From positions 1-45,949 of the IMG/VR virus record IMGVR_UViG_3300022750_000019: 45,949 nt of DNA. One strand, written 5' to 3'. Positions 1,682 to 8,110 of this stretch are shown here, one piece after another (the stretch's first letter is position 1; the number at the start of each line of letters is the position of its first letter). The stretch is from a virus. The position numbers and the translations under genes were made by a program. The notes under the pieces are model-generated. The model saw only the letters and a program-made list of their open reading frames with translations, did not search any database and was not told the origin of the DNA.

Positions 1682-1808
1682 TGGTAGGTGCTGGCGGGAT
1701 CGAACCACCACGCTATCCAGGCTTATCTAGAAAGCCTGGATAGCCCATCGCCCTCGCTACTTTTGGCGAGCCTTGCAAAGCTCGCGTATTCGCGAATCGA
1801 AAACACCT
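1682..1808 (-). ncRNA. Oversized tRNA-like RNA 1 (acceptor stem, T-arm, CCA end)
   Basis: A 7-bp acceptor stem can form between AGGTGTT (1808-1802) and AGCACCT (1692-1686), followed by A and an encoded CCA. A normal T-arm (GGTGG, loop TTCGATC, CCGCC) precedes the 3' acceptor strand. The interior is about 50 nt longer than a normal tRNA. It holds a GCGAGC/GCTCGC hairpin whose loop is TTTGCAAG, a competing CTCGC/GCGAG pairing, and a 12-bp hairpin (CTATCCAGGCTT with AAGCCTGGATAG) where a variable arm would be. No standard D-arm is seen. It may be an extreme class II tRNA, a decaying tRNA, or a tRNA-like RNA with another role. Confidence 0.4.
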
Positions 1809-1868
1809 ATTGCTTGGCGGCGCCCTAGGCCGGGTCGCAATGACAGCCCGCTTTCGGTGCGCCTAAGT

Positions 1869-1955
1869 TGGCGGACGATCCAGGATTCGAACCTGGGAAC
1901 CCTTTCGGGCTGCCGCTTAGCAAGCGGTTGCGTTAAACCTCTCTGCCAATCGTCC
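1869..1955 (-). tRNA. tRNA-Ser (GCT)
   Basis: 87 nt including encoded CCA. Acceptor GGACGAT/ATCGTCC with discriminator G; anticodon loop TTGCTAA gives GCT; a long class II variable arm (CCC GAAA GGG) and a T-arm CCAGG TTCGAAT CCTGG. Four clear pairs in the anticodon stem. A tRNA scan should call this one. Confidence 0.93.
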
Positions 1956-1962
1956 CTGTAAC

Positions 1963-2032
1963 TGGAGCGGATAAAGGGAATCGAACCCTTATTGCAAGCT
2001 TGGAGGGCTAGCTAGCGACCTGCGCTACCCGC
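1963..2032 (-). tRNA. tRNA-Gly-like (TCC), atypical
   Basis: 70 nt with encoded CCA. Acceptor GCGGGTA/TATCCGC (one G-T pair), discriminator T, T-arm AAGGG TTCGATT CCCTT. The anticodon region CTAGC-CCTCCAA-GCTTG matches the arrangement of bacterial tRNA-Gly(TCC), but position 33 is C instead of the near-universal U, the stem has a T-T mismatch, and the D-arm is short (GCG/CGC only). Reading it one base along would give a CCA anticodon but breaks the stem. It is either a decaying gene or an unusual tRNA. Confidence 0.6.
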
Positions 2033-2043
2033 TGAAACGGTGC

Positions 2044-2150
2044 CACCGGAGTTCCCTCAAGCCTGATTACCCTGCGCGCCAGGTCGGTCGTACTTGAGGT
2101 AGGCGCGCTGAGTCGCCTCGTTTTAGTTCTGCCTTTCGGCCTTCTCCGGT
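2044..2150 (-). ncRNA. Oversized tRNA-like RNA 2 (acceptor stem only)
   Basis: A perfect 7-bp stem ACCGGAG (2150-2144) / CTCCGGT (2051-2045) encloses about 92 nt and is followed by G-GCA rather than CCA. A GCC-GAAA-GGC hairpin follows the 5' strand. Inside, GCGCGCC/GGCGCGC (7 bp) and CTCAAG/CTTGAG (6 bp) interleave, so both can form together only as a pseudoknot. No T-loop motif is present. It starts 2 nt after the end of RNA 3. Function unknown; the structure is read by eye. Confidence 0.3.
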
Positions 2151-2152
2151 GC

Positions 2153-2269
2153 TCCGTGCGGAGAGTATCGAACTCCCTTTGCACCTAAGCTAGTTGACGA
2201 CCCTCAGGGTAATTACTCCGTCAAGGTCGACTGTTCGTCATAGGTTCCGGTCCTTACCGGCCCGCACGG
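2153..2269 (-). ncRNA. Oversized tRNA-like RNA 3 (53-nt loop in the anticodon arm)
   Basis: Reads as a tRNA with a large insert. Acceptor CCGTGCG/CGCACGG, D-arm CCGG-TAAGGA-CCGG, anticodon stem ACCTA/TAGGT, 5-nt variable loop GCAAA, T-arm GGGAG TTCGATA CTCTC and discriminator A. The anticodon loop is 53 nt instead of 7 and contains its own stem TTGACG/CGTCAA with an inner ACCC/GGGT. The 3' end is GCA, not CCA. It is too small for a group I intron. Confidence 0.4.
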
Positions 2270-5691: not shown

Positions 5692-6435
5692 TTAGGCCGG
5701 CAACACCCCTGCTCGTTTAAGCGCGATAATTACGTATGGGTCCGTGTTGTCGGTCCCTGCGTACCACTCAGCCCATCCAGCCTCTACGGCCGTAACGGGC
5801 TGCCCCTTGAACTTGCCAAAGCTCATGATGGTTGGCACCCGAGAATCATCCGTAATGCGGTGCAAGTCCTCCCAGGTCAACTTACCTTTTACCGGGTGCT
5901 CCTTGTCGATTGTCCAGATAATGTACTTGAGGATCCTGGCGCAGTTCAGGACGTCACAGTCTGCCCTGTGAGCGCCGCGAATGAGGTCCAGCGCCCAGGC
6001 GTACCCGCGACCAGTCAACAGCGCGATATGAACCAGCACGGCGCCCTGCGTGTGCGAGTCGAGTTCAGGCCATAGCCGGCGCGAAAGGTACATGGTGTCA
6101 ATCTGGCGAGCGCCCACACAGTTGGTCATTCGAGCGTCAAATTCGACGTTGTGCCCAATGATGTATCGGCCGACGTAGTCAACCGCCTTGAACAGCGGCA
6201 GGCCTACCAGCTTCTCAGGGTTGATCAGGGTTGTTACCACGGCGCCAAGGGCCATAGGCTTGGTGTGGCCGTATAGTTCGTGGAACATCGGCAGGTTATC
6301 GCCGTCAAGCGGCATCTTGAGGAACTCTGCCGGTGTGTCCGGAAGTTCCAGGCGGGCCAGTTCGACTACCTGGTCAGTGTGGAAGTCCAGGCCGGTTGTC
6401 TCGGTGTCGACGATGAAAGCTTTTTCAGGAAGCAT
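5692..6435 (-). CDS. DnaQ/ExoX-like 3'-5' exonuclease
   Basis: 247 residues, DEDDh exonuclease fold. Motif I VDTETTGL (Asp10, Glu12), motif II GHNVEFD (Asp100), motif III HRADCD (His156, Asp161). The last ~45 residues form a separate small domain (MSFGKFKGQPVTAVEAGWAEWY) of the FGKxKG type that is also attached to ExoX-like proteins. The enzyme would trim DNA 3' ends in repair, recombination or proofreading. ATG overlaps the nucleotidyltransferase stop (TAATG), so the two are co-expressed. All catalytic residues are present. Confidence 0.88.
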   Translation of the reverse strand: MLPEKAFIVDTETTGLDFHTDQVVELARLELPDTPAEFLKMPLDGDNLPMFHELYGHTKPMALGAVVTTLINPEKLVGLPLFKAVDYVGRYIIGHNVEFDARMTNCVGARQIDTMYLSRRLWPELDSHTQGAVLVHIALLTGRGYAWALDLIRGAHRADCDVLNCARILKYIIWTIDKEHPVKGKLTWEDLHRITDDSRVPTIMSFGKFKGQPVTAVEAGWAEWYAGTDNTDPYVIIALKRAGVLPA

Positions 6436-6922: not shown

Positions 6923-8110
6923 TCAGCCCAGGAACGCGAATTCTTCGTCGTGCTGTTTCGGGTCGACGTGGGCCAGCTCTCTATCTAGCTTTGCCCGTAC
7001 CTCTGGCGGCATTTCGTCGCCCAGGTCAGGCGAGACGCCCAGGGTCGAAGCGTCTAGCGTTGCGTCTCCAGTCAACTGTCCAGGGTCTTGCAGTCCGTCG
7101 CCGCCAATCGCTTTAGCCCCCCTTACCAGCTCCCGCTCCTCCGCATCAAGGTCGATAGGTTCCTGATTGCCCTCCTCGACCTTAGCCTTGGCCTTGGACG
7201 CCTTGACTTCGAGCTGGCGCTCACCCTCGGAATGCAGTGCTACCAATCGCGCCAGGTGGCCGACCTCGACATAAACCTTATCGGTTGCCGGACGCTCGCC
7301 GCGCAAGAACTCCTCAGCAGCAGCGGCAGTATCGGGGCGCAGGCTGCGACGTAGGTTGCTGGTCATGGTGAACATATCGGACAGAAGCGCCGGAGCGACG
7401 GTTACAGGCTTCGGCTCCGCCCTGGCCTTGTCCTTGCTTGCGTTTGCGGTTGCTGCGGCCTTGAGCGCGACCGTAGATGCCTCGGCGTCATCACGAACAG
7501 CCTTGACCGCCTGGGCTACGGTTACTTTCCCGTCAGCAACCAGCTTTTTGCCTTCATCGTCCAGCTTTTCGAGCTTGAGAATCTGGTCAACATACTGGCG
7601 AGTGATGTTCACGCGGTCGGCGATCTGCTGGAGCGTGCCCTTTTCGCCCATGGCCCGCAGCTCCTCGCGGATCGAGACGTACAGGTCCATAAGCTCAAGC
7701 GGGGAGAGCTTTTCGTCACGGTTCGAGGTGTCGATACGAATCAGGCAGTCCAGCTCATCACCCTTGAACGGGGTGATAGGGACCCACACGTCACCCGTGC
7801 CGCTGCCGTCGGCAATGCGATAGCCCTCAACCCGGCAATGACCGTCGATCTTGACCACGCCGCCGCCGTCACGAATCTGCACCTCGACCGCTGGCACTGC
7901 GCCGCCTTTCATGATGTGCTTTGCGATTGACTTAACGTTGAGCTGGGTTTTGACCGACTCCATGTCACGGCGGTTCCACGGGCTGCCGTCGGCACGGGTC
8001 TTGTTGTGGATGTTCTTGAGCTGGATCGTCATGCCAGCGTCAGTGCGCTTGATCATGCCGCCCTTGATCATCTTGGCGAAGCTGTTGATTGTGTAGTCTA
8101 CGTCGGACAT
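6923..8110 (-). CDS. ParB-like nuclease/DNA-binding protein
   Basis: 395 residues. An N-terminal ParB/Srx-type domain contains the box VVKIDGHCRVEGYRIA (about residues 84-100). A helix-turn-helix follows (GTLQQIADRVNITRQYVDQILKLEKL, about 158-185), then a long charged, low-complexity C-terminal half that ends QHDEEFAFLG. Such proteins occur in lytic phages and are thought to bind or cut DNA or regulate; no ParA partner is visible, so partition is unlikely. Ribosome site GGAGAG upstream of ATG 8110. Confidence 0.85.
   Translation of the reverse strand: MSDVDYTINSFAKMIKGGMIKRTDAGMTIQLKNIHNKTRADGSPWNRRDMESVKTQLNVKSIAKHIMKGGAVPAVEVQIRDGGGVVKIDGHCRVEGYRIADGSGTGDVWVPITPFKGDELDCLIRIDTSNRDEKLSPLELMDLYVSIREELRAMGEKGTLQQIADRVNITRQYVDQILKLEKLDDEGKKLVADGKVTVAQAVKAVRDDAEASTVALKAAATANASKDKARAEPKPVTVAPALLSDMFTMTSNLRRSLRPDTAAAAEEFLRGERPATDKVYVEVGHLARLVALHSEGERQLEVKASKAKAKVEEGNQEPIDLDAEERELVRGAKAIGGDGLQDPGQLTGDATLDASTLGVSPDLGDEMPPEVRAKLDRELAHVDPKQHDEEFAFLG

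Follow-up and report, generated by a model that had tools for sequence, protein, structure and literature searches.

A Conserved Four-Way-Junction RNA Core Adjoining an Anticodon-Defective tRNA-like Domain in a Phage tRNA Array

The locus considered here raises the question of what is encoded by three stretches of viral DNA that an earlier note had read as separate, oversized tRNA-like RNAs inside a tRNA array. The DNA is IMG/VR virus record IMGVR_UViG_3300022750_000019, positions 1–45,949, and this whole 45,949-nucleotide stretch is referred to as the window. The three stretches do lie in the array, on the minus strand, as do all window features listed below. The description as tRNA-like holds for RNA1 (1682–1808) and RNA3 (2153–2269), the only ones of the three with a 7-bp acceptor and a T-arm, and does not hold for RNA2 (2044–2151), which by itself lacks a T-arm. 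RNA1 is indeed separate, whereas RNA3 and RNA2, which are adjacent in homologues as well, are two domains of one conserved unit.

Upstream of the array is a σ70-like promoter sequence, TTGACA-16-TATTAT (2495–2522), that agrees with the consensus at 11 of 12 positions; shuffling predicts 0.3 promoter-like sites for the region. Then come tRNA-Asp(GUC) (2293–2369), called by ARAGORN and scoring 64.3 bits with the Rfam tRNA model, RNA3, a single linker G (2152), RNA2 (108 nt), a tRNA-Gly(UCC)-like gene with a shortened D-arm (1966–2032), tRNA-Ser(GCU) (1869–1955), recognized both by ARAGORN and by the Rfam tRNA model, and RNA1. A terminator-like hairpin with a U-tract, read directly from the sequence (1584–1620) and overlapped by weak terminator-containing Rfam matches, ends the array. 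The tRNA-Gly gene, absent from the earlier note, was missed by ARAGORN in the window and scores 28.4 bits against an Rfam cut-off of 29; ARAGORN does call it in three relatives (L004, L005, L123), as a short tRNA-Gly of 71 nt with the anticodon at position 30. Elsewhere in the window are genes for a ParB-like protein (6923–8110; phrog_1033, E = 1.5e-35) and a DNA polymerase exonuclease-like protein (5692–6435; phrog_192, E = 1.5e-28).

Standard tRNA searches of the window do not report the three stretches. ARAGORN called only tRNA-Ser and tRNA-Asp, and RNA1–3 were unmatched by the Rfam tRNA model (RF00005) even at E ≤ 5. When the whole window was scanned for a 5-bp T-arm with a TTC loop together with a fully paired 7-bp acceptor, five minus-strand matches were obtained, corresponding to Asp, RNA3, Gly, Ser and RNA1, all inside the array, along with one plus-strand match; shuffled windows give 0.6, which marks RNA1 and RNA3 as genuinely tRNA-like. 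Fold z-scores relative to dinucleotide shuffles are −5.0, −3.6 and −2.9 for RNA1, RNA2 and RNA3, respectively.

RNA1 has an acceptor (AGGUGUU/AGCACCU), a T-arm and an encoded ACCA end, all as noted previously, and an extra hairpin that is 13 bp long rather than the 12 bp first given. There is neither a recognizable anticodon arm nor the core motif described below for RNA2. No relatives of RNA1 were found: a BLAST search of phages gave one 31-bp match, and a 19-mer match in IMG/VR (L182) shows no further similarity and was judged to be chance. RNA1 may be a tRNA that has decayed or diverged, or else a one-off tRNA-like RNA.

RNA2 is of a quite different kind. The stem that closes it is present, but has 8 bp, and RNA2 ends at 2151 and not at 2150; this closing helix, P1, pairs CACCGGAG (2144–2151) with CUCCGGUG (2044–2051). 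Within it, in the order of the chain, are hairpin A (GCC-GAAA-GGC, 2131–2140), a near-invariant joining strand AGAACUAAAACG (2119–2130), the near-invariant hairpin B, AGGCG-N8-CGCCU (2101–2118), and P2 (2093–2099/2055–2061), a helix enclosing a conserved internal loop, hairpin C (CCUG-GCGCG-CAGG, 2071–2083) and the sequence UAAUCAG (2063–2069). Joining strand and hairpin B together (2101–2130) make up a signature motif, AAMACGAGGCG-N8-CGCCUA, read as AGAACUAAAACGAGGCG-N8-CGCCUA in the near-invariant strand, and it is this junction strand of the core that is the most conserved part of the whole element. P1, hairpins A and B, P2 and the motif, all of which RNA2 has, define the class of cores to which it belongs.

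In order to establish this structure we used an alignment of 17 homologues from which the window and its close relatives had been left out. All alignment cells are paired in P1, with 6 of 8 pairs doubly changed, as are 7 of 7 pairs in P2 and 3 of 4 in hairpin C, and in hairpin A 3 of 4 pairs covary. For the nested junction as a whole (P1, hairpins A and B, P2 with C) 97.7% of cells are paired, with double changes at 20 of 29 core pairs; none of 500 shuffles reaches this, and slid controls pair at 28–44%. Because the search patterns that retrieved the homologues demanded the motif, its conservation is partly by construction; the pairing tests are independent of it. A covariance model (R1) built from the 17 homologues, without the sequence group of RNA2, detects 2044–2151 with 109.3 bits and E = 1.5e-31, and the RNAfold minimum free energy structure of RNA2 is the consensus four-way junction. 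Related phages have neither plain tRNAs nor random sequence here, outcomes that would have spoken against the earlier note, and keep the same stems through compensatory changes. The interleaved stems that had been proposed to form a pseudoknot in RNA2 did not hold up, since the GCGCGCC/GGCGCGC pairing is found in 74% of cells, with no covariation over 21 sequences, and what is conserved is the nested junction. One 310-kb phage carries a second copy of the core (L032, 3248–3357), in which the otherwise invariant A-U pair closing hairpin B is replaced by C-G.

RNA3, the tRNA-like domain (TLD) of the window and referred to as TLD1, has an acceptor (2263–2269/2154–2160), a D-arm (2247–2260), a T-arm (2161–2177) and a discriminator A (2153), assigned from structure and from relatives. 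Where a tRNA has a 7-nt anticodon loop on a 5-bp stem, RNA3 has an abnormal arm whose 53-nt loop holds a hairpin with conserved CGGAGUAAUUACCC (2207–2220), so that the first description of its arms stands. In RNA3 and three relatives the acceptor, D-, T- and inner stems are 100% paired, with 6 of 20 pairs doubly changed. Across four relatives only one position changes in the apical CGGAGUAAUU(A/G)CCC of the hairpin at 2207–2220, and this apical stretch contains a self-complementary GUAAUUAC, by which a dimer or kissing contact would be possible.

The discriminator A of RNA3 is followed by G and then at once by P1, so that a free 3′ end would need cleavage at this point. Most loci of the window type have the same arrangement, an acceptor/T-arm unit plus "N-G" immediately before the P1 strand. 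In a set of 42 homologues, comprising upstream or insert sequences from both chain orders (see below) and excluding the Vibrio loci and three others that lack a clear P1, a TTC-type T-arm and an acceptor ending 1–3 nt before P1 were found in 29 (0.41 in shuffles), and the last base before P1 is G in 41. ARAGORN reports no tRNA in 33 of these 42 domains and an undetermined tRNA in 4. Their anticodon arms range from tri-loops (L032, L041) and 6–8-nt loops (L050, L065) to long hairpins (the window, L016, L044, L084, L138). As the TLD adjoins P1 in most homologues, with the G retained, RNA3 and RNA2 are probably one RNA of ∼226 nt. In the related phage Torfinnsbu the entire RNA3–RNA2 unit is missing from between tRNA-Asp and tRNA-Gly, and the unit therefore behaves as an exchangeable cassette.

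The same helices are also found in a second chain order, type (c), which reads P2 strand, AG, P1 strand, tRNA-like insert, P1 strand, G(U)AG, hairpin A, AGCAACU, AACACGAGGCG-N8-CGCCUA and P2 strand. It fits 23 of 27 distinct AACACG loci under strict criteria, as compared with 0.0 per shuffle; full pairing and the end letters were themselves search criteria, and it is the shuffle control that carries the weight. The inserts mostly end in an acceptor, a T-arm and N-G, and P1 has 8 bp in both orders. The window form, in which the P2 end is closed by the loop with hairpin C and UAAUCAG and the chain ends at P1, is a circular permutation of type (c). In long forms, type (b), the TLD is at the P2 end (L045, L062, L083, L085) or at both ends (L031). 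Separately, we note that L031 and L151 have tRNA-like domains on both P1 and P2, that long forms such as L045, L062, L083 and L085 contain an extra structured domain of ∼170 nt (GGUGAGACCGCGUAACG...), and that six loci (L048, L057–L059, L080, L124) form another variant (AAGUUAAAAACGAGGCG...CGCCUACAC), in which a CGGU-hairpin-GGUGCGG loop caps P1, hairpin A is larger and no tRNA-like domain is evident.

How widely the core is distributed can be gauged from several searches. BLAST with RNA2 returned phage TPWB-08, three Vibrio phages, the jumbo Pseudomonas phages D6 and Psa21 and, in part, Erwinia phages. A scan of IMG/VR for the signature motif gave at least 119 stretches, versus 10 when the letters of the pattern were scrambled without altering its composition; with tighter requirements, 20 contigs with the window's own form of the element were obtained. 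Named phages that carry the core include Erwinia phage ChrisDB, Serratia phage Moabite, Pectobacterium phage CBB, the Ounavirinae phiEa21-4 and SE5, Acinetobacter phages SR and NL, Arthrobacter phage Kumotta and Rhodococcus phages. The second chain order is seen in jumbo phages, Ounavirinae, Chaseviridae and others, and the longer forms in lambdoid phages and some prophages. In phiEa21-4 a gene annotated as "tRNA-OTHER" (L176, 800–936) is the TLD of a type-(c) element, and other undetermined phage tRNAs may be TLDs of the same element. The Vibrio cores lack tRNA neighbors, carry a plain hairpin of 8 bp where the TLD would be, and have a terminator of their own.

The lambdoid phage CUS-3 (L179) has a form related to type (b) in its late leader region, between Q and S. 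This region is annotated only as a module boundary ("bsq3 boundary sequence"), whereas here it is recognized as encoding a structured RNA, the element overlapping part of bsq3. At least 80% of the CUS-3 lambdoid query is present in 116 of 5426 E. coli genomes. Enterobacteria phage IME10 and Escherichia phage Huey are further lambdoid phages with the long form. Phage lambda itself was rejected as a carrier, its match to the query being to downstream sequence only and not to the core, and a search with a lambdoid D-arm pattern, probably too strict, gave no matches. Outside of phage collections, convincing GTDB matches come from Bacillota, Bacteroidota, Pseudomonadota, Chloroflexota and Patescibacteria; roughly half of 16 GTDB pattern matches have no flanking structure and look like chance. 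The type-(a) core model was found in the chromosomes of 0 of 369 gammaproteobacterial genomes, under strict filters and in a set without a positive control. Three exact motif matches occur among these genomes, that in Serratia without flanking structure.

RNA3+RNA2 belongs to no catalogued RNA family among those checked. Neither RNA1–3, nor 17 related loci, nor two long forms gave a match in Rfam 15 at relaxed thresholds, and searches of the open-access literature brought up no matching RNA, an earlier description under another name being possible. With a tRNA (RF00005) the TLD shares a 7-bp acceptor, a UUCGAAU-type T-loop, often a D-arm, and the same operons, but in place of an anticodon arm it has nothing, a tri-loop, a 6–14-nt loop or a long hairpin, the 3′ side of its acceptor runs on into P1, and it scores below the reach of the tRNA model. 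In a tmRNA, a larger folded body is attached to a tRNA-like domain, an architecture that the composite RNA shares, but the bodies differ, no tag frame was noticed, and the TLD of the window form lacks a free 3′ end; there was no Rfam tmRNA match at relaxed thresholds and none was reported by ARAGORN, which also looks for tmRNA. The bacterial Y RNA YrlA is likewise a longer non-coding RNA that includes a tRNA-like module; it carries a Ro60-binding stem where the present RNA has a four-way junction with an A-rich invariant strand, and no Rfam match to YrlA or Y RNA was obtained for the window, the related loci or the long forms.

The species 1 and 2 stable RNAs of T4 (rnaC, rnaD) are stable, oversized and encoded in a phage tRNA cluster, but lack the core motif; blastn found no similarity of either to RNA1–3 and model R1 did not match the T4 cluster, so that homology was rejected, RNA1 resembling rnaC only in outline (T-arm, long extra hairpin). 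GOLLD and ROOL are large phage-encoded structured RNAs found near tRNAs; they are longer (several hundred nucleotides) and structurally unrelated, and neither is matched in Rfam by the window RNAs. A retron, suggested by AGC after the outer stem, was also rejected, since type (a) has either A or G at that position and no gene product resembling a reverse transcriptase was noticed. The proposal in the earlier note of a new tRNA-like class is supported for RNA3+RNA2 by compensatory evolution, recurrence in unrelated phages and the lack of an Rfam family.

What such an RNA might do can be approached from its two domains. We incline, by a small measure, to the explanation that it is a composite phage RNA, acting in trans, which undergoes tRNA-type maturation and whose core binds a conserved host target. 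The anatomy, drawn from covariation, the adjacency of TLD and core, the two chain orders, the distribution among phages and the absence from Rfam, stands on very firm ground; the mode of action is offered tentatively. The anticodon-defective TLD1, joined via "N-G" to the four-way-junction core in one ∼226-nt non-coding RNA, would be co-transcribed with the tRNAs of the array, starting at the promoter at 2522. Acceptor and T-arm are features recognized by RNase P and other tRNA enzymes, and such enzymes, RNase P first, would trim the 5′ end at the TLD, so that the RNA would mature like a tRNA. An RCCA end is a positive determinant for bacterial RNase P and its absence from the TLD counts against this step; moreover, maturation driven by the TLD would not be universal, since the Vibrio versions have none. 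The TLD could not receive CCA or an amino acid for as long as its 3′ side continues into P1 and, with decoding lost and no free 3′ end in the window order, would not be chargeable as it stands. The core would then bind, in trans, a host component common to many bacteria, most likely a part of the tRNA/translation machinery or of a tRNA-dependent defense. We favor such binding because the TLD keeps the features seen by tRNA enzymes and the junction strand of the core is the most conserved. The Vibrio cores, with a hairpin for the TLD, no tRNA neighbors and their own terminator, suggest a stable trans-acting RNA and not a purely cis-acting one.

Among the alternatives, that of a tRNA decoy is unlikely, if still worth keeping in view. 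A TLD without a cleavable anticodon loop would, together with the core, sequester host defenses that target tRNAs during infection, such as anticodon nucleases or effectors that cleave tRNA tails. The position of the element in tRNA arrays, the systematically abnormal anticodon arms next to a retained acceptor and T-arm, and an apparent restriction to phages, to judge from the 369 gammaproteobacterial genomes without a core-model hit, are all consistent with a decoy. Yet it is the core and not the TLD that is most conserved, the Vibrio versions do without a TLD, and the anticodon arms vary so that there is no common recognizable bait.

Quite improbable is that the core represents a new ribozyme, self-cleaving or RNA-processing, with a part in cutting the polycistronic precursor of the tRNAs. 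Ribozymes such as hammerheads are typically found circularly permuted, with one stem or another open, and the occurrence of the same four helices in two chain orders, as well as small, invariant junction strands with peripheral helices free to vary, would fit. However, in Vibrio phages the core is solitary, followed by a terminator of its own, and there is nothing for it to process; there is no conserved cleavage context at one open end, and no Rfam ribozyme family is resembled.

We give very little credence to a tmRNA-like or ribosome-associated RNA, in which the TLD and structured body would enter or block the ribosome; the TLD of the (b) forms does have a free 3′ end and an anticodon stem leading into a large body, but the tmRNA searches described above were negative, no tag frame was noticed and the 3′ side of the window TLD is not free. 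Decaying tRNA genes or randomly folding sequence, the first of which had been raised earlier and fits RNA1 insofar as no relatives were found, can hardly account for the locus, as compensatory changes and wide recurrence rule it out for RNA2 and RNA3 and leave only RNA1 as a possible case. Intron-containing tRNAs of group I, permuted group I or archaeal type, already doubted in the earlier note, have next to no claim in spite of the 53-nt anticodon loop of RNA3, the interruption of the TLD at the anticodon stem in the long forms and the possibility that permuted introns escape the standard model, since the strands that flank the insert in the long forms are complementary and form a 7–9-bp helix, so that a palindromic hairpin without an anticodon loop would result from joining them, a group I core would not fit into the 108 nt of the present core, and the un-permuted long forms have no Rfam group I/II match.

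Returning to the favored trans-acting composite RNA, we judge the chances to be about even that it represents a modular, widespread phage RNA class, with one circularly permuted core and TLDs on P1 (the window form), P2 or both, that acts in trans, with a host component conserved in several bacterial phyla as its target, either as a tRNA-mimicking effector RNA or as a new class of ribozyme. Phage tRNA arrays have been much studied, yet an RNA with a near-invariant core has been left unannotated in lambdoid phages of E. coli, Ounavirinae, Chaseviridae and jumbo phages, or has sometimes been labeled "tRNA-OTHER". The element may explain some undetermined phage tRNAs and part of the lambdoid "boundary sequence", and it raises the question of the role of an anticodon-less tRNA look-alike during infection. 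The element is a ready target for deletion, pull-down and structural work. That one RNA core is circularly permuted across phages is rare and is informative as to where function lies.
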